Below, piece by piece: positions 3,001 to 29,225 of a DNA stretch of 29,225 bases. The position numbers and the translations under genes are program-made. Each line of letters starts with the position of its first letter. Positions within the stretch are counted from its first letter, which is position 1. The DNA is from Spirogloea muscicola (lineage: Eukaryota > Streptophyta > Zygnematophyceae > Spirogloeales > Spirogloeaceae). Location: contig WELB01000105.1 in NCBI GenBank assembly GCA_009602725.1, forward strand, positions 121,192-150,416, given 5' to 3'. Under the pieces are notes generated by a model. The model saw nothing but the letters and a program-made list of their open reading frames with translations. It made no database searches and was not told where the DNA came from.

Positions 3001-6000
3001 CAGGAAGTCTGTGGAAATCAATGTTCTGTAGAGATTTCTTGAGCATCATCTATACAGTGTGCCCGACAGAAGACTGGCAATGGAGTTTCTGCCACAAGGG
3101 AAAACTGTTGCTGAAGTTGTCTCACTCTGATCAGTAGTAGATCCTATGACAGTATGCTTGGCAAAATATGCAATAACCACAGCTTTTGTCCTAGGATATT
3201 GGTTAGCATTAGCACTGATGACCTGCTGCATTGAAACTGTTACCTTGCGGTGTTGTTCCGCAGGTCAGCTTGGAGGCTTTCTTCAACCACTTCTTCTCAG
3301 ACGACAGCTCCTTTCAGGCCAACTTCCAGTGCAGGCAAGGCGATGAGGGTAAGGCTCTAAGCTGCTTACTAGAGCAATAATGTTGGGTCAACTTTGGTCT
3401 TGTATTTGTGGGTTGTACCCCAGTATCATCCAGTATCTGATTGCAAATGGCTGTGCGAAGTGAATAGACTATCAATGCAGCAAGTGGAGGAAGCACGAGC
3501 AGAGTGGCTATGTCCGTGACATCTCCTTTCGACATCCAATTAATCTTTTCATTGGTGAGAGTGTCCTGCTTGCAAGTCTCAATTGAGGCGCAGAGCAGGA
3601 TATCTTGCATCGTGCTGCTCAATGCTGGTCGATATATGACAGCAGCACCACCATATTGTATGTCATAGCTCTGAGGTCACAAGTTTACAAGCACTCGCTC
3701 ATGTGATTAAGCAAGTACCTCGAAATTGCTGTGTAGCACATTTTTATACTCGTTGGCAGAATCTTGTTGTTGATATGCTATTAATCTAAAGGGGCATTCA
3801 CTTTGTCGCACATTTGGTGGCAACCTTTGACATGCATTTTGTCTTTTGCAGGACCAAAGTCTACACTCTGCAAGCAGCAGCAGCAGTTCAACATTTATAG
3901 AGATGGGTATGACATTATCCCGTACTTTAAGGACTTGCCAGCAATGTCTGTGAGCAGATTCTTTCGCGGTTTGCCTCCTGATGGTGTAACAGACTGGTCA
4001 GACAGTTATTATCGTGTCCACGTCTGCATGAAATGCTACACTTTGATGAGGTTTTGTTGAAGTTCATTAAGCTGGTGCTTTCCACGACAGGCATATCGTA
4101 ATTGAGAGCAGGCAGCAGATGATTGACATTCCTTATGGGGATTACTTCACTGTGAATGTGAGGGACAACCTATGCCTGGTTCATTTGCATCACATACGAC
4201 GTTCCTTTGATTTGAGCTGATGTCCGATCTAGGCCGATTTAGCACAACACTGCATTTTGGACAAAGCATCGGAGATATGAGAATCCTTCCGTAAAGAATG
4301 CCGGCGACCTTGTTTCTTCGCCAGATGAGGTGGGACTTGCTGCCAGAGGAAAGGAAGCCCTCAGACTGCTGCAGAATTTCCATCAATCTGGGTGTCGATT
4401 TCTCGAAGAAGACCATGTGGAAGGGTAAGCTAATGAGACTCAAAGCCATGTGCAGTTGCCTGGTCCAGTAAGTACATTGTTGCTTCTGTAGTCTCCTTTT
4501 GAAGTACTTTGGTTCTGCTTGGCAGCTGATCATGTATTGTCAGGCACATTATGTAATCAAGTGGAAGTGTGAAAGCTTGCATTGACTCGAACACAGGCAA
4601 AATCGAGCAGGGAGCTTTGACTGAAAGCCAGGACATTTACCGGCTATGGATGGAGGAGGTACTGTGCCCATAATAACTGCAACAGACATCCTCTTCTTCT
4701 CAGCTTATGTGCATCCAACAAGTCATTACTGGCTTCTGAGCAGTTGCTTATGCCTCTCACAACTCTCTCCCCTGCAGGCCCGCGCAGCAGTCCAAGCCTC
4801 CTCAAATGATGAGGCGCAAGAGTCAGGCTATGACTCGCATGTCTTGGGCAGAGCATCCACGTCTTACAATGGGGTCGGTCCTGCCTCAGCAAGAAGCCGC
4901 CCTGCCCATATTGATGATGCAACAGCTCGGCTCCTGGCTATCTTGGGTTAGTCTTATCCCCAATGTATGCAACCAGGGTCTTCAGTGTATGAGTTGCAGG
5001 CCTGCTGAAGAATAAGAAACCAATCTGCGAAGCTTCTCTTGCCCTCCCTCTCAGTATTACATATTGTGGGAAAGAGGCTTTGCCCTGCTACCATGCTGCT
5101 CGGTATCCAACATCATGCAAGAGCTGCTTCTTGTGTGCAGCTGAGAACAGGATACTTCCTGAGTACGAGCATGAAATTCGAGATATGCTCAATCTGGAAA
5201 AGGATGAGCTTGATGCAGCAGCTGCTAGTGGAAGCCCGTCAACCAGCAGCAAGTCGAGGCCAGGTGCTTACTGCAGTCAATGCGATGCCCCTGCGACTTA
5301 CAACAGAACACCCTTACGTTGTTGTTGTGCATCCCACTGTTCCTGGATTGAGTCGTGGCTGACTGGGACTCTGTTGCAGGTGCCTCACCACAAGGAGGTT
5401 ACAAGCGTCCCATCCGTAGTCGATCAAGCGATGTCTCGGCCAATTTTGGAGGTGCCTCTGGCATAAGCACCGGCGGAGGCCGGGCGACAAGGTGGCGCAG
5501 GCTCTGGAACAGATGGCGAGGAGTTGCCCTCTTGCTCCTGCTCGGCTTTGCCATACTAGCGCTGCAGGTGAGTCAACTGACACCTATGCCTAATTTTTGA
5601 CACAAATACCTGTCATCCAATGATGGTGCTCTCCTTAATATCCAGAAGTCTTTATACCAAAGATGGTTGAGACCTGATGAATGGTGTCATTGACTCTTTC
5701 CATGCACTTTGGCCAATGTGCAGTTCCTCTTAGAGTGGCCAGGCTGGCAAACAGCTCCCATAGTGGATGTCATTAAAACGGGAAAGCACCGTGTGTCACT
5801 CAAGCACGAGATTCAAACAAGCAAAAAGGCATATACAAAGTGGGAGGATAGATGGGAAAAGCGAATACTTCGGTTCCAGGTGGCTCTGGCTTACCTTTAC
5901 ATGTCTTAAACAAAACGACACAACAATGTGCAATGCTGAATGTCTCCTGGCACTCGAGGGGTCTTGTTTTAATAGGAGTGTGGCTAACAATGAGGCGGCT

Positions 6001-6195
6001 CTGTATCACTCTGTGCAGAAAGATGCCTACCGACTTGAGAAGAAGCTTCAGTCGATGCACATTGATTTGTCACGCTTCAAGCAAGACATTTGGGAATCTC
6101 CACAATGTAGAGCCCACACAATGATAGCACCAGAGGACCTTGATGATGAAGGCGAGGAAAGCGAGTCGGTCACTGGTATCAGTGATCGACTTTGA
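1..6195 (+). CDS. GRAM-VASt domain membrane protein (VAD1/LAM-like), 5' partial
   Basis: Exons read here: <1-546, 656-721, 906-956, 1111-1176, 1308-1403, 1565-1735, 1838-2669, 2836-2876, 3264-3334, 3481-3554, 3852-3906, 4091-4157, 4325-4424, 4597-4658, 4778-4946, 5141-5263, 5380-5567 and 6019-6195. Phases agree at every join and give about 984 codons in the window. The N-terminal exon is low complexity (Pro/Ala/Ser, ten CCG codons in a row) and is still open at base 1. A GRAM domain follows (visible residues about 190-300; EEYRQLFELP, TLIEDFNCALQKKILLQ, AKTAGVFPNAIEV, FASFISRDEAF). A roughly 280-residue acidic/Ser linker fills exon 7. The VASt domain (about 610-765) shows AFFNHFFSDDSSF, DISFRHPIN, IDIPYGDYFTV and VDFSKKTMWKG. 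Exon 17 encodes a Trp/Arg patch and a hydrophobic helix (VALLLLLGFAILAL, about 905-925); the tail is charged. Family knowledge: VASt folds are StART-like, and LAM/VAD1 relatives bind lipids at ER-plasma membrane contacts. The function here is inferred. An extra in-phase exon (5724-5879) is possible. Confidence 0.85.
3335..3480 (+). other. GC-AG intron in the VASt-coding region
   Basis: The GT donor at 3349 leaves phase 1, which cannot join the next VASt-coding exon in frame. The GC donor at 3335 (AG|GCAAGG) leaves phase 2. It joins the acceptor at 3480 (TGCAG) to read FQCSKWRKHEQSGYVRDIS, which matches the family pattern of a Cys, a Trp and a 'R-(N/D)-(L/I)-S-F-x-H-P-I' strand. Confidence 0.75.
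5724..5879 (+). other. Possible optional exon after the transmembrane segment
   Basis: This 52-codon open stretch is preceded by TGTGCAG and followed by a weak GTGGCT donor. Both ends are phase 0, so inclusion or skipping keeps the frame of the GRAM-VASt gene. It would encode a charged segment (FLLEWPGWQ at the start, WEDRWEKRILRFQ at the end) just after the membrane helix. I do not recognise it from the family, and it may be chance openness within one long intron (5568-6018). Confidence 0.3.
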
Positions 6196-6909
6196 TGAGA
6201 TTGATTCAGAAACATATCTATGCTCCATGGCCTCATTCAAACAGGCCTCAACCGATTTGTGCAAGCCCGTGTTTAGCATGCCCAAAGCTTGCTGTCCAAA
6301 TAGTCAGCAAGAAGTCCAGCTTTGCTTTGCTATGGACAATAGCTACTGTGCTGTAGCAACCTTAGAATGGTTCCTGGCAAAGACAAGTCTTTTTAGTCGA
6401 CTTCAGCAGTAGTGAGGTGAGTTGTTGACTTTTGGGAAGAGCAACCGTTTTCTCAAACAATATTGGGGAGATGGACCAAGACAGTGCGCATACCAAGCAG
6501 TTCAGAAATGTGCTAATTGTTTAATAGCTGCCCATAGCCTCCGTGCTGGCAATGTGGGCTCATCTTAATATCTGCCAACTTAAGTCTCGCTATCACACAT
6601 GTCACACGCAAGCGCAGCAGTAGCTGGCCGATGCTCCCAAATATATGGAGCCGCTGACTACGTTGGCTACAAATGTGATTCTCCCGTCAACAGCCTGTCA
6701 GGCACGAACTCCACATCACACGGTGGGCCAATCTCGAGGTAAGCCTTCAACGGATGACTGCTGGAAGCCCTCTGTAGACTCTGGTACGAGCAGCCTGCAG
6801 GCTAGTGCTGGGCTGACACGTAAGGTTCTAGGAGATGTCAATTCCCGACGACAGCAGCCGTGAAAGTACCTCCAACCGGATGGGGTCTCCACAGTGGCAA
6901 ATCCGCAAC
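6196..6909. other. Convergent intergenic region between GRAM-VASt gene and eL36
   Basis: This holds the 3' untranslated regions of two genes pointing at each other. Short open frames occur on both strands, but none has recognisable sequence or a convincing chain of splice sites. I see no RNA gene or repeat here. Confidence 0.6.
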
Positions 6910-19545: not shown

Positions 19546-22500
19546 TCACACTTCAATCATGGTAGGCTCGTAGTCCTCTGGAGCTTCAAAACCGAGGAGA
19601 TTAATGAAAGTAGCAGCCACGTTGGCGAGGCCGGCCTCTGAAAGGTCTGTCCGCAGTCGTACGTCAGGGTGAAGGCCAGGACCACCAATGGCAAGGGGCA
19701 CCTGCAACTCGCATGCAAGGAGCTTTAAAGCAGGTGGAACCTCAGCAGCAGACCACTACACACTTGACGTCATTCGGCTGGAAGGCACTACGACGTCATT
19801 CGGCTGGAAGGCACTGCACTGCAGGCACTGCATCCACCCACCAAATGCCTCAACGCAAAACTGTAGAGCGTCATGCAGCCTTGCCGGACAACCCCACCCC
19901 ACAGGCATCGGCTTGAGGTCTTACGGGTGCACAAGTGTGAGCCGTGAGGATCTGCAGCTTTCCAGCCTTATCCTTCAGTGGCTCCCCTGTCTTCGGATGT
20001 CTTTTCACCATGTCCTCTGCATTCCCATGGTCTGCTGTAAGGAGGAATATGCCACCAACTTCTTCAACTGCATCAAGAATCACCTGTACAGGTATGCATA
20101 GGACAAAGACCTCTAACCTTAGTGCCTCATAGTAGTACAGCGACGTAGGCATCTATTCATTCAGCTCATAGCAATACTTGAACTTTGCAGGAAGTTGAGC
20201 ACCATACACAGTGTGTGCTGGACACCAAGATGGCTTATGCTCCAGTCTTTGCATTGAAGGGAGAGGTGCAAGCTAACCTTGATGGCCTTGTCAACCACAC
20301 CACAAGCCTCTATGGTGGCTTCCAAGTCACCAGTATGCCCCACCATGTCGGGATTTGGAAAATTGACTCGCACCTGCCAGTTGTTTATTAATAGCAACAT
20401 GATCAGCACAAAGAGGCTTCTATTGTATATAATATAACAAGCATGCGCAATTGACCGGCGCGCTTCTTGACATCGTCAGTAAGTACGAAACGAGCCTGGC
20501 TTGGAATGCATGGCTATAACGGCCGGCCCCACAAAAAAGTAGAATTCGGCTACTTGCTCACATGATCATACTTTCCGCTCTGCAATGCCTCCTTGGCCTT
20601 CTTAGCAATCTCAAGAGCCTTCATCAGCGGCTTCTCATTAAACTTGATGTCAGAGTCACTGGGAATCTCGAAGTAGGTCTCATAGTCCTGATTGAAGTAA
20701 CCCGATCGGTTCCCATTCCAGAAGAAAGTGACATGCCCAAACTTCACGGTCTCACTGAAAGTTGGAAATCATTCATAGACATTGTCACAAGCACGACCAC
20801 ATTAGAGTGGGAATCCAAAAGCATGACAATATAACATGCTATTCCTCTCTAGAGCAGCTATCAGCTTGTCCTGCGACCAGTGAGCCGCCACGGGAAGAAC
20901 AATAAGAGGCACAAGTACAAATATCTGATATAGTGCCCTCCTCAAGCCCAGCAATGCATCACTCACCTGCAGGCATACGTGCGAACGCCATTGTGGGCCA
21001 AGTACTCCCCAGAAGTACGCGCAATCTCGGGCGGGCTGACCAGGAATTTGTTGGGCAACTTTAGTTCTCCATCATATTGCATCATACCCGCATATCTGAT
21101 TTTAGGGAATCGGACTCTGTCGAAATGGTCAAAGTCCTCAAACTGCAGTGCCTTTGCAAGCATCACCATCCTATCTGCTCGGTAGTTGAAGGTGACCACC
21201 GCATCCCCGTCGACAATGGGGCCAACAGCCTTCCCGTCATTGTCAACAATGACAAATGGTGGATAGTACTGGTCATTGACTTTCGGGTCGGCCTCCTTCA
21301 GCTTCTTCAGAGCCTCCACAGCACTGGTGAACTTGTTGGGCGCTTCTCCGAGTACCTGAGCTTCCCAGCCTCGTTTCACCACGTTCCAATCGTTCTGCAT
21401 GAAAAGGGCTGCAATGTAAGAGACCATTGGTCTGCGCTGTATGAAATCCGGGAGGATGTTGCTTTTGATTGCCACGAACAGAAGCAGAACATAGCTGCAC
21501 TGCATCGCTATGCTGTCTGTACCAACTGTCTGCCTGTCTGCCTGAGTGAAGCAGACATAAAGTATTACGACTCTTATAGGCCTCACCTCGTACCGATCCA
21601 TGGTGACATACATTCGGCCACCTCCGGAAGCTATCTGGGCATCTGTGCCGCCAGACCTCAGCTCCTCGAGGTCTTTCTCAAGTTGCTCCACAAAGCCCAG
21701 GCTGCTCCCGTCTTGGACATCGCGGCCATCTGTCAAGAAGTGCACGCGTATCCGCTTGGCGCCATTCTCTGCGGAACCCTTGAGCAACATCTGCTCCATC
21801 CAGCTGACATCCTGATCAGCTTCTTCGCCAAATGACCACAAGTTTGACAGTGACAGTATGGTATCAAACCCTTCCTGCTCATTTCAAGGGCCCTTCTCTT
21901 GGAAAGACGTCTACGCCTAGGACGTCACAGTGGAATCTCCTCTTCTGAGCTGAAAAGTACCTCTTCCTGGTCCTTCTGCAGCTATGACTTGTCAGGTCCG
22001 TAGCTTAGGCTGCTGCAACAGCTCTCCGCCGCAGGTCAGGGGAAGTGTGCTCGAGTGATAGGAGGAAAAGCTGACAAACCTGGAGCTGGTCGTAGCGAGA
22101 GTGCACACCGCCATCGCTGAGGAGGCCGATGAGGTGCAGAGTGCCCTTCTCGAAGCAATCGGTGAGCCACTTGAAGCCCTCGCCGGAGAAGAGCTTCTTG
22201 GTCGTCAGAGCGTTGTCCACCAGGCCCGCCCTGCACATCCACCAGTCTGGCTGTGAGCACAGGCCTTCTGACCACAATGACGAGCGGCAGCGCTGCAATG
22301 GGGATAGCGGGGCCGCGGCGGAGGGCGGGCGCCTGACCCCTGCTCGAAGATGCGGCCGGCACCGAGCGCGTTGTGGCCCACTTCGCTGTTGCCCATGTCG
22401 TCCTCCTTGGGCAGCCCCACCGCCGGGCCGTGCGCCCGCACCGTCCGCCACAGCTTGGGCGCCGCCTGCGTCGCTCGCACACACCACACACAGCCCTCAG

Positions 22501-22722
22501 CTGATGGGCATAGGTGGCGAGCGCAGCTGGCGGAGGGATGCCACAGACGGCCCGGACCTGCTTGAGGGCGTCCATGGTGGGCGTGGGGGCGACGAAGGTG
22601 GCGTTGTACTGGTCGTGGATCTGCTCGCCCCAGCCGTCCAGCACGATGACGGCCACCGGCTTGCCCCGCGGCAGCACCGCGTGCGGCTTCAGCTGGAAGC
22701 TCGGGTTGGCCGGTGGCCCCAT
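19546..22722 (-). CDS. 2,3-bisphosphoglycerate-independent phosphoglycerate mutase
   Basis: Interconverts 3- and 2-phosphoglycerate in glycolysis through a phosphoserine intermediate and two metal ions. Nine exons on the minus strand: 22722-22558, 22465-22338, 22230-22080, 21790-21587, 21394-20967, 20754-20562, 20373-20278, 20083-19925, 19701-19546. The sum is 1680 nt, 559 codons plus TGA, close to plant cytosolic iPGAM. Active-site parts: Asp29 in VIVLDGWGE, the nucleophile Ser82 in [34 protein letters not shown]-type [33 protein letters not shown] at 288-291, DMVGHTGD (Asp432, His436) and [13 protein letters not shown] (Asp473, His474). The C terminus is [13 protein letters not shown]. The Met at 22722 was chosen because [12 protein letters not shown] aligns with the plant start; upstream in-frame sequence is Arg/Pro-rich. 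No transit peptide is seen, which suggests the cytosol. Confidence 0.95.
19766..19815. repeat. Two-copy direct repeat, period 26, in last iPGAM intron
   Basis: GACGTCATTCGGCTGGAAGG plus CACT occurs at 19766-19789 and again exactly at 19792-19815. It lies in the intron 19702-19924, a recent small tandem duplication. Confidence 0.85.
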
Positions 22723-23150
22723 GGCCGCAGGGCGCCCGGCGCCGCTCCCAGCCCGCGGGGAGCGCGGCGGGGCCGGGGGCCTCGCGTAACGCCGGGAGAG
22801 CCGCCGCGATCGGCGCCGCAAGAGCCGCCGCGATCGGCGCCGGCGGGGACGCCGCGAACCGCGGCGGCAGTCCCGGCGTGGGAGGGGATCGGGGTGGGCG
22901 TCGCGGCGGGCGACGCTAATAATGATGGGGGGCGATCCCGGTTCCCGGCATTCCCAGAATCGCAGCAGGCGACCGGTGCAGGAGGGGATCCGCGGTGCAA
23001 TCCCGCATTCTCGGCGGGCCGATGGTGGGGGGCCGATGACGCGTGCGGGGGCACTCGCGGCGCGTCAGCGAGGGGCACCGCCAGGGTGACGTTGCCGTCA
23101 GCGTGAGGAGGTTGGGAGGCGCCACTGAAGCCCCTCCCCAGGATGAAAGG
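22723..23150. promoter_or_regulatory. GC-rich upstream region of iPGAM with tandem repeat
   Basis: The unit GAGCCGCCGCGATCGGCGCC occurs in direct tandem (22798-22821 and 22822-22842). The ten-mer GCGATCCCGG at 22932-22941 also occurs twice upstream of atpG (18462-18471 and 18540-18549). Long open frames here are compositional. A promoter role is inferred from position only. Confidence 0.4.
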
Positions 23151-23169
23151 AGGACTCCAGTAGAAGAAG

Positions 23170-23660
23170 AAGTGGCTCTCCCAATGGGGGCAAGGAAAGA
23201 AGCAAGCGCGGCCAGATTAACTGGTGGCTGGGAGAGGCCAGCCCAAAAGAATGGACAAGGTCTGAAGGAGTCGGAGTGCTAAGGACTGAGACAGCAGTAA
23301 GCGAACTCTCAGTAACCTCTCGTCAGTAGATGCAAATCTGAGTAGCTAGCAGGCGGAAAGACGTCGCCCTGACGGAAGCCGGAGGCCGCCGCCAGAGCGC
23401 GGCCTGCGCGCAAGTGGACCGCAAAAGCTAGGGACCGCTGCAAAGAGACGGCCAGGCGCATCCGGTAAACTTGGGCGAGGGACCCGGCGACATGGAAGCC
23501 AGGCTGCTCGCCTTGCTGCCCGTCGCGGCGGGCCGCTGCTCGCCGCGCAAGGCGGTGAAGGAGGTCCAGCCATTTGGCGCCGAAGGGCTGTGAGAAGCCC
23601 GCCCGTAAAGAATTGACAAGGTTCGAAGGGGCCAAACTACGAGCTAAGCAGCAACTACGG
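23170..23660 (-). repeat. Second repeat cluster: decayed mobile-element unit
   Basis: On the minus strand this carries WLDLLHRLARRAAARR, FHVAGSLAQVYRMRLAVSLQ, HLRAGRALAAASGF and the terminal DLHLLTRGY stop (about 23309-23580). All are close to peptides in the 8459-9660 array, for example LRAGRALAAASG at about 8550-8590 in a shifted frame. It is flanked at 23170-23275 by core-repeat pieces (TCTCCCAATGGGGGCAAG, GGCCAGCCCAAAAGAATGG). It is the better preserved copy of an unidentified element. Confidence 0.65.
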
Positions 23661-23781
23661 GGCCTGAAGAAGAAGTGGCTCTCCCAATGGGGGCAAGGGC
23701 TGTGAGAAGCCAGCCCGAAAAGAATTGACAAGGTTCGAAGGGGCCAAACTACGAGCTAAGCAGCGACTGCGGGGCCTGAAG
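23585..23781 (+). repeat. 85-bp direct repeats, period 112
   Basis: 23585-23669 and 23697-23781 are equal in length and differ at only about four positions. Both contain ATTGACAAGGTTCGAAGGGG and GCCAAACTACGAGCTAAGCA. The 27-base spacer holds the GTGGCTCTCCCAATGGGGGC head of the same family. Confidence 0.9.
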
Positions 23782-23784
23782 AGG

Positions 23785-23907
23785 CTATAGCAGAACGTCC
23801 TTTCCCGGCTCCTCTTTCTTTGGCTTTGGACATTGTCCATTCTTTTTTGGGCTGGCTTTGCCAGCCCCTCTTCTCTATGGGCGCGCACTTCTATCTATAG
23901 CAGAACG
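23785..23907. mobile_element. 97-bp insertion flanked by 13-bp direct repeats
   Basis: CTATAGCAGAACG at 23785-23797 is repeated exactly at 23895-23907. Between them lie 97 bases (23798-23894) related, in inverted orientation, to the core family (GACATTGTCCATTC, GGGCTGGCTT, GCGCGCACTTC). The flanks look like a target-site duplication. A length of 13 fits target-primed (LINE/SINE-type) insertion, though this is inference. Confidence 0.6.
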
Positions 23908-24092
23908 AAGTAGAAGAAGGGCTCGCCCACAGAGGATTAGGGGCTGGAAAAGGTCAGCCTAAAAAGGAATGAACAAAGTGGGAAAAGGGGCCAGTAGATG
24001 GGGGATAGGTTTCCGGCAGCTAGTCTGTCGGGTTTGAGGTTCCTCACTCGTAATTACTGAGTGGTCCATCCTCCCCCGTTCTGACATAGCAT

Positions 24093-24216
24093 CTTCAGGC
24101 CCCTTCGAAGCTGCTTAGCGCTTTTTAGGCCCCTCCATCATTTGGCCCCTTCGAACCTTTGTCAATTCTTTTTCGGGCTGGCTTTTCACAGCCCTTGCCC
24201 CCATTGGGAGTACCAC
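24093..24216 (-). repeat. Inverted copy of the core repeat
   Basis: This is the reverse complement of 23675-23781 with a short insertion (the AGCGCTTTTTAGG and CCATCAT segment). Together with that copy it forms a large foldback enclosing 311 bases, including the 97-bp insertion. Confidence 0.85.
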
Positions 24217-24299
24217 CTCTTCCCCCAGTAGAGGGCGATGGCTGTCGTTGGCAAGCCCAGAAGATGAATACAAGCTTGGCGCGGTGTGGTGAGAGGCAG

Positions 24300-25317: not shown

Positions 25318-28300
25318 CTAGCTGGGCTGTCTTCCCGGCCCCCCTCCCTGCGGAGCAATGCGAGGTGACTCGATGTGTCTGCCAGCCCTCTCGGAGCCAG
25401 AACCATGCCATGCCATCTGGCTCTGCTCCCGCTCGGCACCAGCAGAGTAGTGGGCAGCCAGCCTTCTTCCACCTCCACCACCACCTCCGCTGCTCCCTAG
25501 CGTCCTTGGCTCTGGCATGCTGGCCACTGGTGGCACATCCACGGGCATGGCAGCTGAGAGGAAACTGCTGGTTGCCAGCAGCTCCCGAGGCAGCGACCTC
25601 GAGCCGCGCCACTCCCCTGCCACCCTGGGCAGCCCTTCTTTTGTAGCTGCACGACCATCCTCGGCCCTTGAGTACACTGTGGGCTTGCCGCCCTGCGCAG
25701 CAGGACTCTCATGACCGTGATGCAGGTCGGCATCCTCCCTTGCCGCCCAGCCACTATCGGCGGCTGCCCCTCTCCTCGAAGCACCCAAGCTACCAGGCGA
25801 CGACCTCAGATCGACGTCAGGCCTGGTGCCGCCCACTACCTGGCCACTGCTGCCAGCGCCGGTGCCATCTTCCCTCTGCTCCGAGACCATCACAGGCGCA
25901 AAAGCTCCGCTGCCTGCCTTGCTGACCACATTGGGCCTCGACTCGACCACCCGTCCTGGCTGCAGCTCCTGCTCGCGAAGGGCGAGGCTGACGCCCCGCG
26001 CTGGGGCTGTCACCGAGCCCTCCCCACAGTCGCCTGGCTGGGCGGCATACTGTGGGTGCCCTGCTCGTGCGTCGTCGAGCTGCCGGGCGAGACTGGCCAC
26101 CTCGTTGCCGCCAACTATGCTGCCTTCACCACCGCCCCCACCAGCATCACCGCCGCCTAAGAGAGAGATTCCGCCAGCCACGCTGCCCTCACCAGCACGG
26201 CCCCCAAGTCTCCGCAAACCCTGCAGGAAGCCCTCTGCAGCTGCACCAGCGCTGCTGCCACCATAGGACTCTGCCGGCAGCGCTGAGCCGCCCGAATGTA
26301 CTGTTCCATCCATCCAGCCGCTGCCAGTACCGCCACCACCGCCAACACTGACTCGGGGCCTGGAGTCGATCGTGTCACCCACGCTATAGGTGCGTCGCGC
26401 ACTGCGCTGCATGCTGCGCGACACTGATGGCTCCTCAGTGGGAGCGCACGATGTCGAGTAGCTTTTGCCCCGCTGCGCCGCCGCCAACAGCATGATTCTC
26501 TTTGCCTGCACATATTTGCAGGGGTCCCAGACAAGCTCCACAAGTAAGACCAACTTCTTCTGTAGACATGTTCCAAGGAAGAGCAGGAAGCAGCCAACCG
26601 AATGAGCGGAGCAAGTGTTCCAAGGTTGAGCTGCTGGTCTCCTCTCTCAATGCACAAGCAAGCTTGCCCTTGACCCGTTGCACCACACCTGCTCCTCAGA
26701 GACGTCGTCAAAGACGTGGATCAGTCGACCATAGAAGATGGTCATTTGCTTCTCAGCTTGGCCATGGCTTGCGACACTCCTGCACGGGATGTCAGAGGTA
26801 TGTCAATAGCTTGATCAGCTCAGGTCACATGTGGAGATTGACAAGTCGTCAAAGCAGTAGTTAGACTGACAAGGAGCGGCCACCTCATTTGACGCTACAC
26901 ATGAAGTTGAGCTACAGGTCAACTTAGAGGACATGGCGCCATGAAGCAACTTGAGCGGGTAGTAACCAGGCAATGCTGACCTGGTAGGTTCCTCCACCAG
27001 CGGTGCCACAGGCGTGCGCGACGCCACATCCACACGATAGTGGCTATCCAAGGGGCTGCTTCGACTCCTCTCCTGCTCAACCAGCTCACCATTGCAAGGA
27101 CAGGCAGCAACATAAAGATGCTGCGGTCAACCCGCATCACATAATAAGGTAAGCAATGACCACAAAGAGAGGCCAAGTAAGTGATGGCCACCTCACCTGC
27201 ACCCTCACTACCTCAGGCATGCTCTGGGGTGACTGCTGATATACCGCCAGTGGGCTCCGTGGCAGGGGTGCGCTGCTGCGCACCAGCTCCTCGGACACGA
27301 CAGGGCGGGCAAAACGGCGTGTCTCTGCTCCTGCGCGTCCCCAATCTTGCGAGCCTGCGGGCTGCGCAATGTGGCCACCATCCCTGTGCTCGCTGGCTGC
27401 TGCGAAGCCTGTGGGGGCCAAGCTGTGCTGATACTGGCGCAGCGGGCTTATGGACGGGCTGTGGACGGTGAAGTCCCCACCATCACGAGTCAGCGCGTCC
27501 GGAGCCGACATCACTGGCCGTGCGACGCCGCCGCCGGCGCTGCCTCCTTGGCTCTCGGCTGCCACAAATGTGGGAATGCTGCCCACAGTCTGGGCGGGAG
27601 AGCGGTGCATGGGCGGCAGGGTGCTGGCCGCAGCTCCCTGACGTGCTGCAAACGGCTGCGAGAGCTTGCCCTGGCGGAACCCTATGGGTTGCTTGGCGAC
27701 GGGCAGCAGCAGACTTGACGAGGCAGGCCGTGCAGGCAGCGCTCCCGGGGGGGACGGTGCACTGCTGCTCGCAGGGCGGCTGCCATGGGGCCCCACCAGG
27801 TACTTCAGCTGCTGCCGGAGCGAGGGCTCCGGCGTTGGCCTGGACGGCAATGGTGCCGTGACTGCGAGCTGCGAGGGTGGTTGCTGCTGCCGCTGCTGCT
27901 GCTGGCCGGTGCTTGGGGTTTGCATTGGCTGCTGCGTGCGCAGCATACCGCGCTGGTCAGCACCCTCGTGCCTCGGGGACGACTGCTGCGCAGGCCGAGA
28001 CTGCACGCGCATGACCTGCTGCTGAATGGCCTGCTCGGTCGACAGCGATGCCGGCAGCATTGTCGGGCCTTGCAGCTGCTGCTGCTGCGTTGCAGAGGAG
28101 GCATGCCGCGAGTCGTCCTTGACTGGAACCTGGTTCCCCAGCCCGCCATCCCGCAGCTGCTGCGCCGTGAGCCGCACGCCTGTAACCCATCGTACACCAC
28201 AACACACAGTGGACATCAGAGAAGCGGAAAAAATAAGTCGAGCACCTCAGGACGAGTGCGGAACTTGCGATGGCGAGGCAGGAGTAGAGAAGCGTTCCAA

Positions 28301-29225
28301 TAGGCACCGTGCATGCCAGAGTGAGAAGGTCCAAAGAGGCGGACGGGGCAGCAGGGGCCGGGGCAAGGGCAGTAATGGGGACAAGGGCCGGACCTTGGTC
28401 TTGCAGGTATTGCAAGATGTGCGCCTCTTGGGCAGCCAGCTCCCGGACCTGCGCCTCGGTCAGATGGCTGGCCGGGCCGTCAAGCCGCGCCCGCTTGGCG
28501 AGCTCCTGGCCGCCCTCGTCTTCGGCCAAACGGCGTACTTCTGCAGCCAGGGCAGGGCCTTGGAGCTGCCACGCTGCTCCTGGCTTCTGGGCCAGCCTGT
28601 ACGGCGGTCCGAGCGCCTGGGCCTGGCTGCCACCGGCGCCCCCGGCCATGCGCGTGAGGAGAGGCGGCTGCAGCTCGTGGAAGAGCGGGCTCGTTGTGCT
28701 GCATGGCGGCGAGGGCAAGGCTCAGCAGCGTGATCAGCAGCGAGCGCCGACAAAGATCAAAGACCGGGCCACCATGCGCATTCGTCTCAGCAGGGCAGCT
28801 TCCCAGCAGCATCCCCCCACCACAGGACATGAGGCTCGTGGCGCGCGGCGGCAGCACTCGGGCCAGCCTCGAGGGCCACCAGCCAGATGCGGCCGGTGCC
28901 ACGCCCTCGGCCAGCGACACACTCTTGAGCGGGCTTTGAGGTCTGCTGGCCGTTGCCGTGGGGAGAGGAGGAGAGGGGCTCGGGGGCCCGACCTGCCAGT
29001 AATGCTGCCCTCGGCGGCCGCCGCGAGCGCGTGCAGGGCAGGGTCGTGGGACGCGGCCTCGTCGGAGCCGAAGATCAGCGAGGAGGAGCCGTCGCGCGCG
29101 CCGCCCGAGTCGTTCGAGAGTCGCTTGAGAGGCGGCCTGTGTGCGGGCACGGCCGTAGCGGCGCCGGCGGCGGCGGCGGCGGCGGCAGCGGGCAGGCCCA
29201 CGCCGGCGGCGGCCTTGTCCACCAG
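25318..29225 (-). CDS. TIFY-domain protein, 5' partial
   Basis: Six exons on the minus strand: >29225-28993, 28698-28394, 28179-27197, 27072-26981, 26779-26689, 26505-25318. Phases agree at all joins and give 963 codons plus TAG. The TIFY domain crosses the join of the last two exons: KQMTIFYGRLIHVFDDVSEE then QAKRIMLLAAAQRGK (visible residues about 549-583). It keeps the TIFYG core, the FDD turn and the K-x-IMLLA helix. The rest is low complexity: Ala-rich start, a Gln/Ser/Pro-rich 327-codon exon with poly-Gln, and a Gly/Ser/Arg-rich 395-residue tail. I see no Jas (degron) motif, CCT domain or GATA finger, so it is neither JAZ nor a complete ZIM/ZML in the visible part. It is closest in layout to TIFY-only proteins. 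TIFY domains mediate dimerisation and NINJA-type corepressor binding; nuclear regulation is inferred. Confidence 0.82.

Follow-up and report, generated by a model that had tools for sequence, protein, structure and literature searches.

The window, the whole stretch of 29,225 nucleotides analysed here, contains at its right end an incomplete gene that raises the question of whether an alga encodes a genuine TIFY protein, to which class of the family such a protein would belong, and what it could say about the origin of the jasmonate-repressing JAZ proteins. The TIFY family has been tied to land plants (PMC3439424, PMC8836299), and of the algae surveyed, most are described as lacking JAZ, the exception being Klebsormidium (PMC8079949). 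Jasmonate signalling is apparently not conserved in streptophyte algae according to the excerpt of PMC11449224, and jasmonates themselves probably originated in land plants (PMC11096116). Among the literature matches listed, no title or abstract opening describes TIFY genes of Zygnematophyceae. In Spirogloea muscicola, all 100 transcription-associated protein families are also present in land plants (PMC11712027, in part), and TIFY may be among those 100.

The TIFY domain and its three gene copies

A profile search with the Pfam tify model (PF06200), run exon by exon over the 153-Mb, 471-contig assembly with gaps read as N, identified four TIFY loci (all five candidates scored), and further loci are possible. 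These are the window gene on contig C105 and loci on C59, C210 and C114. The first three are copies of one gene, their aligned DNA stretches being 76-92% identical and most of them near 90%, and when the second half of the TIFY domain served as query, these three loci and no other were found. With respect to the genome as a whole, the GRAS model PF03514 gave 92 exon matches, which count as 22 loci; in no fewer than five cases, three of these loci have near-equal scores. Because GRAS genes occur in sets of three, a triplicated genome is suggested, and the three TIFY gene copies are most likely homeologs kept after this triplication. GRAS factors form part of a network that Zygnematophyceae and land plants inherited from their common ancestor (PMC11096116, excerpt). 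A chlorophyte origin of the genome is unlikely given the 22 GRAS loci and their grouping in threes. The earlier sequence-only reading had placed the gene in a green-algal-type genome; this holds as far as a green alga is concerned, and is refined here to a probable zygnematophyte with a triplicated genome (GRAS sets; PMC11712027, in part), most probably Spirogloea muscicola itself. Since the genome appears to be that of a streptophyte alga of zygnematophycean type, a TIFY gene is less unexpected in it than it would be in a chlorophyte.

The spliced product of the window gene matches PF06200 at 43.6 bits (E 1.8e-11; residues 465-497 against model positions 2-34 of 34), which is above the model's cut-off of 27 bits, so that the TIFY signature proposed from the letters alone withstands an HMM search of the spliced translation. 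The C59 protein scores 47.4 bits, and a 50-residue segment from C210 scores 51.4 bits. A chance or artefactual domain is ruled out by the E value of the window match together with the presence of the domain in three copies. The signature had also been described as complete and split by one intron, and this too is borne out. Specifically, the junction 26689/26505 has GT...AG borders (GAGCAG/GTGTGG ... TGTGCAG/GCAAAG) in phase 0, common to all three copies, and it is supported by the match score itself, because splicing adds about 12 bits to the 31.3 bits that the window exon with the first half of the domain attains alone. The unspliced reading frame reaches a stop early within the intron.

The TIFY core motif is defined as TIF[F/Y]XG (PMC3439424, PMC3885651, both in part), and in this strict form it is absent from the window gene and from its two homeologs. 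The motif reads TIFYGR rather than TIFYxG, with Arg at the Gly position of TIF[F/Y]XG in all three copies, and the two residues directly after this constant Arg differ among the copies.

Gene model and coding constraint

Five exons of the window copy, from 28394-28691 through 25318-26505 (Table 1), join into 883 residues with zero internal stops, and the same five exons yield 904 residues in the C59 copy and 903 in the C210 copy; the exons from 28179 to 25318 alone encode about 784 residues. The exon at 28992-29225 is 97% identical to its C59 counterpart and 88% identical to that in C210, and its join to the next exon is tentative. A length of at least 963 residues had been claimed from the sequence alone; the 883 residues are open and the first exon would fit, but with its junction tentative the figure of 963 is no more than plausible. 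The description of the product as a large low-complexity protein was accurate. The middle exon (27197-28179) is 983, 1007 and 998 nt long in the three copies, and these differences are multiples of 3. Compared with both other copies, the window copy lacks 14 bp near its stop, and this deletion alters its last residues.

Table 1. Features of the TIFY gene in the window, and the TIFY domain of the ZML gene elsewhere in the assembly
Feature	Position	Strand	Observation
Probable first coding exon	28992..29225	-	78 codons in window, open; 5' end in assembly gap
Tentative coding exon, 99 codons	28394..28691	-	Same open frame, phase-compatible in three of three copies; 5' boundary uncertain
Coding exon, Gln/Pro/Ser-rich low-complexity, 327 codons	27197..28179	-	Open in three of three copies
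Small coding exon, 92 nt, phase 2 at end	26981..27072	-	Length and splice borders same in three of three copies
Coding exon, larger N-terminal part of TIFY domain (QMTIFYGRLIHVFDDVSEEQ)	26689..26779	-	PF06200 31.3 bits alone
Phase-0 GT-AG intron within TIFY domain	26506..26688	-	Same position as in C114 ZML gene
Last coding exon, 395 codons and stop	25318..26505	-	AKRIMLLAA (TIFY remainder) and Gly/Ser-rich C-terminal part
TIFY of C114 ZML gene	C114:282556-282627		Within L006 (C114:277000-286999)

Differences among the copies fall unevenly over the codon positions. Between the window and C210 copies they number 47/50/99 at first, second and third positions (99 of 196 at the third, p 2e-6), and between C59 and C210 34/36/73 (73 of 143 at the third, p 4e-5); the window-C59 pair, at 37/43/61, has a weak third-position excess (p 0.036). 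From this bias we conclude that the gene is, overall, constrained coding sequence. In terms of individual exons (pairs given throughout in the order window-C59, window-C210, C59-C210), dN/dS is 0.30, 0.26 and 0.28 for the last exon, 0.65, 0.42 and 0.36 for the middle exon, and 1.0, 0.31 and 0.10 for the TIFY exon at 26689-26779, which comprises 30 codons. Codon-level constraint is not seen in the exon at 28394-28691, where dN equals or exceeds dS in all three pairs, and in the 92-nt exon dN is above dS in all three pairs on the basis of just 30 codons. These two of the five modelled exons are the less certain, weaker parts of the model.

A gene for a cofactor-independent phosphoglycerate mutase lies near the TIFY gene, on the minus strand at 20963-22821 of the window (iPGM_N 141.9 bits, Metalloenzyme 27.1 bits). 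Homeology reaches as far as this gene, the stretch 20963-21841 being present next to the C59 and C210 TIFY genes as well. About 1 kb between the two genes (about 23163-24224) aligns with neither homeolog and may be inserted DNA, perhaps a mobile element. Scanning the window for tRNA genes gave no hit.

Class within the TIFY family

The fourth locus, on C114, is a canonical ZML gene of TIFY-CCT-GATA type, with scores of 54.4 bits for tify (two TIFY exons joined), 43.9 for CCT and 51.4 for GATA; the stretch of this gene that matches the Jas profile scores higher as CCT. It shares with the window gene the TIFY domain and, within it, an intron of the same position and phase (VSEEQ/AKRIML in the window, VPPEK/VQAVLL on C114), and it differs from the window gene by its CCT and GATA domains and by the VQAVLLLLGG form of the motif. 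The common intron is most simply read as ancestral to both domain forms. A single ZML gene was found, where a triplicated genome could carry three; its two counterparts may have been lost or may lie in gaps.

Within the domain, the window gene has 13 of 29 identities with Arabidopsis JAZ1 and 10 of 29 with the resident ZML, and the margin is narrower in the C59 and C210 copies (11 of 29 with the ZML, again 13 of 29 with JAZ1); between JAZ1 and this ZML, 11 of 29 positions are identical. The algal motif letters are TIFY...AKxIMLLA, which is the class II type, as against TLSY...VQAVLLLLGG in the resident ZML. Among the PDB matches, JAZ1 (PDB 8t2i chain J) was the sole TIFY protein; the first comparison also listed an unrelated, weaker chain, and in the second JAZ1 was itself part of the query profile. 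A comparison over 29 residues with one land-plant sequence, JAZ1, is suggestive of a class II-type TIFY gene. The principal alternative is a derived class I ZML whose CCT and GATA domains were lost in the algal lineage, with the likeness to JAZ arising by convergence within a short domain. We consider this unlikely: the TIFY intron of the resident ZML does agree in position and phase, and over so short a domain the C59 and C210 copies are only two identities nearer to JAZ1 than to this ZML, but an ancestral intron would be expected in TIFY genes of every kind, and both the class II-type TIFY and AKxIMLLA letters and the closer match to JAZ1 than to the resident ZML speak against such a derivation.

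A class II assignment is accompanied by the lack of any further recognised domain in the readable exons. The sequence-only reading had described a TIFY-only protein without visible Jas, CCT or GATA, and a Pfam comparison of the 883 spliced residues agrees with it, having returned no other family at E<=1 and none of these three. The last exon by itself gave zero Pfam family matches, and the 78 window residues of the first exon gave a sub-threshold match to DNAX_ATPase_lid (E 0.08) as their sole Pfam match. For Jas in particular, a genome-wide profile search with PF09425 (all four candidates scored) matched C114 only and none of the three TIFY-only genes. When the three genes and their 3' flanks were scanned on both strands for a Jas regular expression, three near-hits came up, none of them Jas-like: two cross a stop codon, and the third falls about 1 kb past the C210 gene in an Arg-rich frame. 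A hidden Jas exon in the three genes was therefore rejected by profile and regular expression, although a Jas split by an intron could escape both. The CCT and GATA domains of a ZML are likewise absent from the 883 residues, the upstream gap lying outside the readable part, and general Pfam scans found no N-terminal PPD domain, with the first exon incomplete.

The profile match places the protein in the TIFY superfamily even though the strict core motif is lacking, and by the features examined it is neither a JAZ nor a ZML; for the readable part of the gene, the TIFY domain is the only one present, and the architecture is to that extent TIFY8-like. Arabidopsis TIFY8 (At4g32570) resembles the algal protein in having TIFY/ZIM as its sole recognised domain (PMC3885651, excerpt). 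Its ZIM is closely related to that of JAZ, and the protein is without Jas, EAR, PPD, CCT and GATA (PMC3885651). PEAPOD (PPD1/2) is likewise class II TIFY (PMC3885651, in part), and may differ by the PPD domain, which the general Pfam scans of the algal protein did not find. JAZ repressors have the TIFY domain in common with the algal protein, which is much larger and in which no Jas motif was found. TIFY8 is about 360 residues long; the algal protein departs from it in its size (about 784-883 residues or more), in the Arg at the motif Gly and in belonging to a genome in which no NINJA was detected.

Part of the 5' end is hidden by the assembly. The right end of the window (29225) is followed by N for at least 10 kb, and the minus-strand gene continues into this gap. 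The C59 copy offers 62 extra bases before its own gap, and in these an in-frame ATG precedes the window's first codon by 13 codons; this ATG is a candidate start codon of the gene. If it is the true start, no GATA finger lies upstream, and on this ground such a finger appears unlikely. The sequence-only reading had raised the prospect of an upstream GATA finger and of extending the gene beyond 29225. The C59 copy provides such a continuation and weakens that worry without dispelling it; the window contig itself has N there. A DNA-binding or other domain encoded in the gap, which would make the TIFY-only structure an assembly artefact, strikes us as improbable. N does adjoin the window and also lies upstream of the C59 copy, and the C210 sequence there is present but does not align with that of C59; set against this are the ATG in C59 and the position of CCT and GATA downstream of TIFY in the C114 gene, as in ZML genes generally, the window being complete on that side. 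Upstream of about C210:90160, the C210 contig looks by eye like coding DNA on the opposite strand, pointing to a rearrangement or misassembly. Also upstream of the C210 copy, on the plus strand at about 5400-6250 of locus L009 (C210:83400-84250), are what appear by eye to be leucine-rich-repeat coding exons.

Possible bearing on JAZ origin, and proposed partners and mode of action

Overall, we conclude that the window gene probably encodes a class II-type (JAZ/PPD/TIFY8-like), TIFY-only, non-JAZ protein that is kept as three homeologs and may serve as an adaptor. In an alga that probably belongs to the sister group of land plants, the TIFY domain of the jasmonate repressors is present in three gene copies, without the part that makes those repressors hormone-responsive. 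The sequence-only reading had suggested that the gene would bear on how this signalling family arose; this is possible, but a 29-residue domain is too short for a firm phylogenetic claim. The co-occurrence of a TIFY-only gene and a standard ZML in a probable zygnematophyte bears on the origin of JAZ without settling it. Tentatively, the gene might descend from a TIFY protein that later gained Jas to become JAZ, with class I (ZML) and class II having split before the divergence of Zygnematophyceae and land plants, and with the ancestral class II protein having been a large, hormone-independent adaptor with a partner other than NINJA.

With respect to partners, Arabidopsis TIFY8 is nuclear, acts as a repressor via NINJA-TOPLESS (TPL) and is stable under jasmonate (PMC3885651, PMC9967580, both in part). 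The NINJA models PF16136 and PF07897 had no match in the algal genome; the 14 control genomes, silent in all plant-family searches, were silent here too and so provide no positive control for these families. The TIFY-binding-domain model PF16135 (TDBD) gave six genome matches, all six read in frame, which by eye we take to be of the PHD-finger protein type and not NINJA-like. Because no NINJA was found and the motif Gly is replaced by Arg, a TIFY-binding protein distinct from NINJA is the likelier partner.

If TIFY8 is a guide, the algal protein would be a nuclear adaptor that does not itself bind DNA. Its TIFY domain would pair with itself or with other proteins, and the long low-complexity flanks could tether, on opposite sides, a transcription factor and a co-repressor, as in TIFY8. 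Since no Jas motif was found, the protein would have no jasmonate degron; without Jas it would not undergo COI1-mediated degradation upon jasmonate, and would act as a hormone-independent adaptor or co-repressor bridge. It is very improbable that the TIFY domain is instead a non-functional relict, with other low-complexity regions of the protein doing the work, for although Arg occupies in all three copies a Gly that is reportedly needed for JAZ10 interactions (Chung and Howe 2009), the domain scores well above cut-off in each copy, and this Arg is constant while the next two residues vary. The genome also holds 10 matches to PF18511, the F-box model of TIR1/COI1 type.
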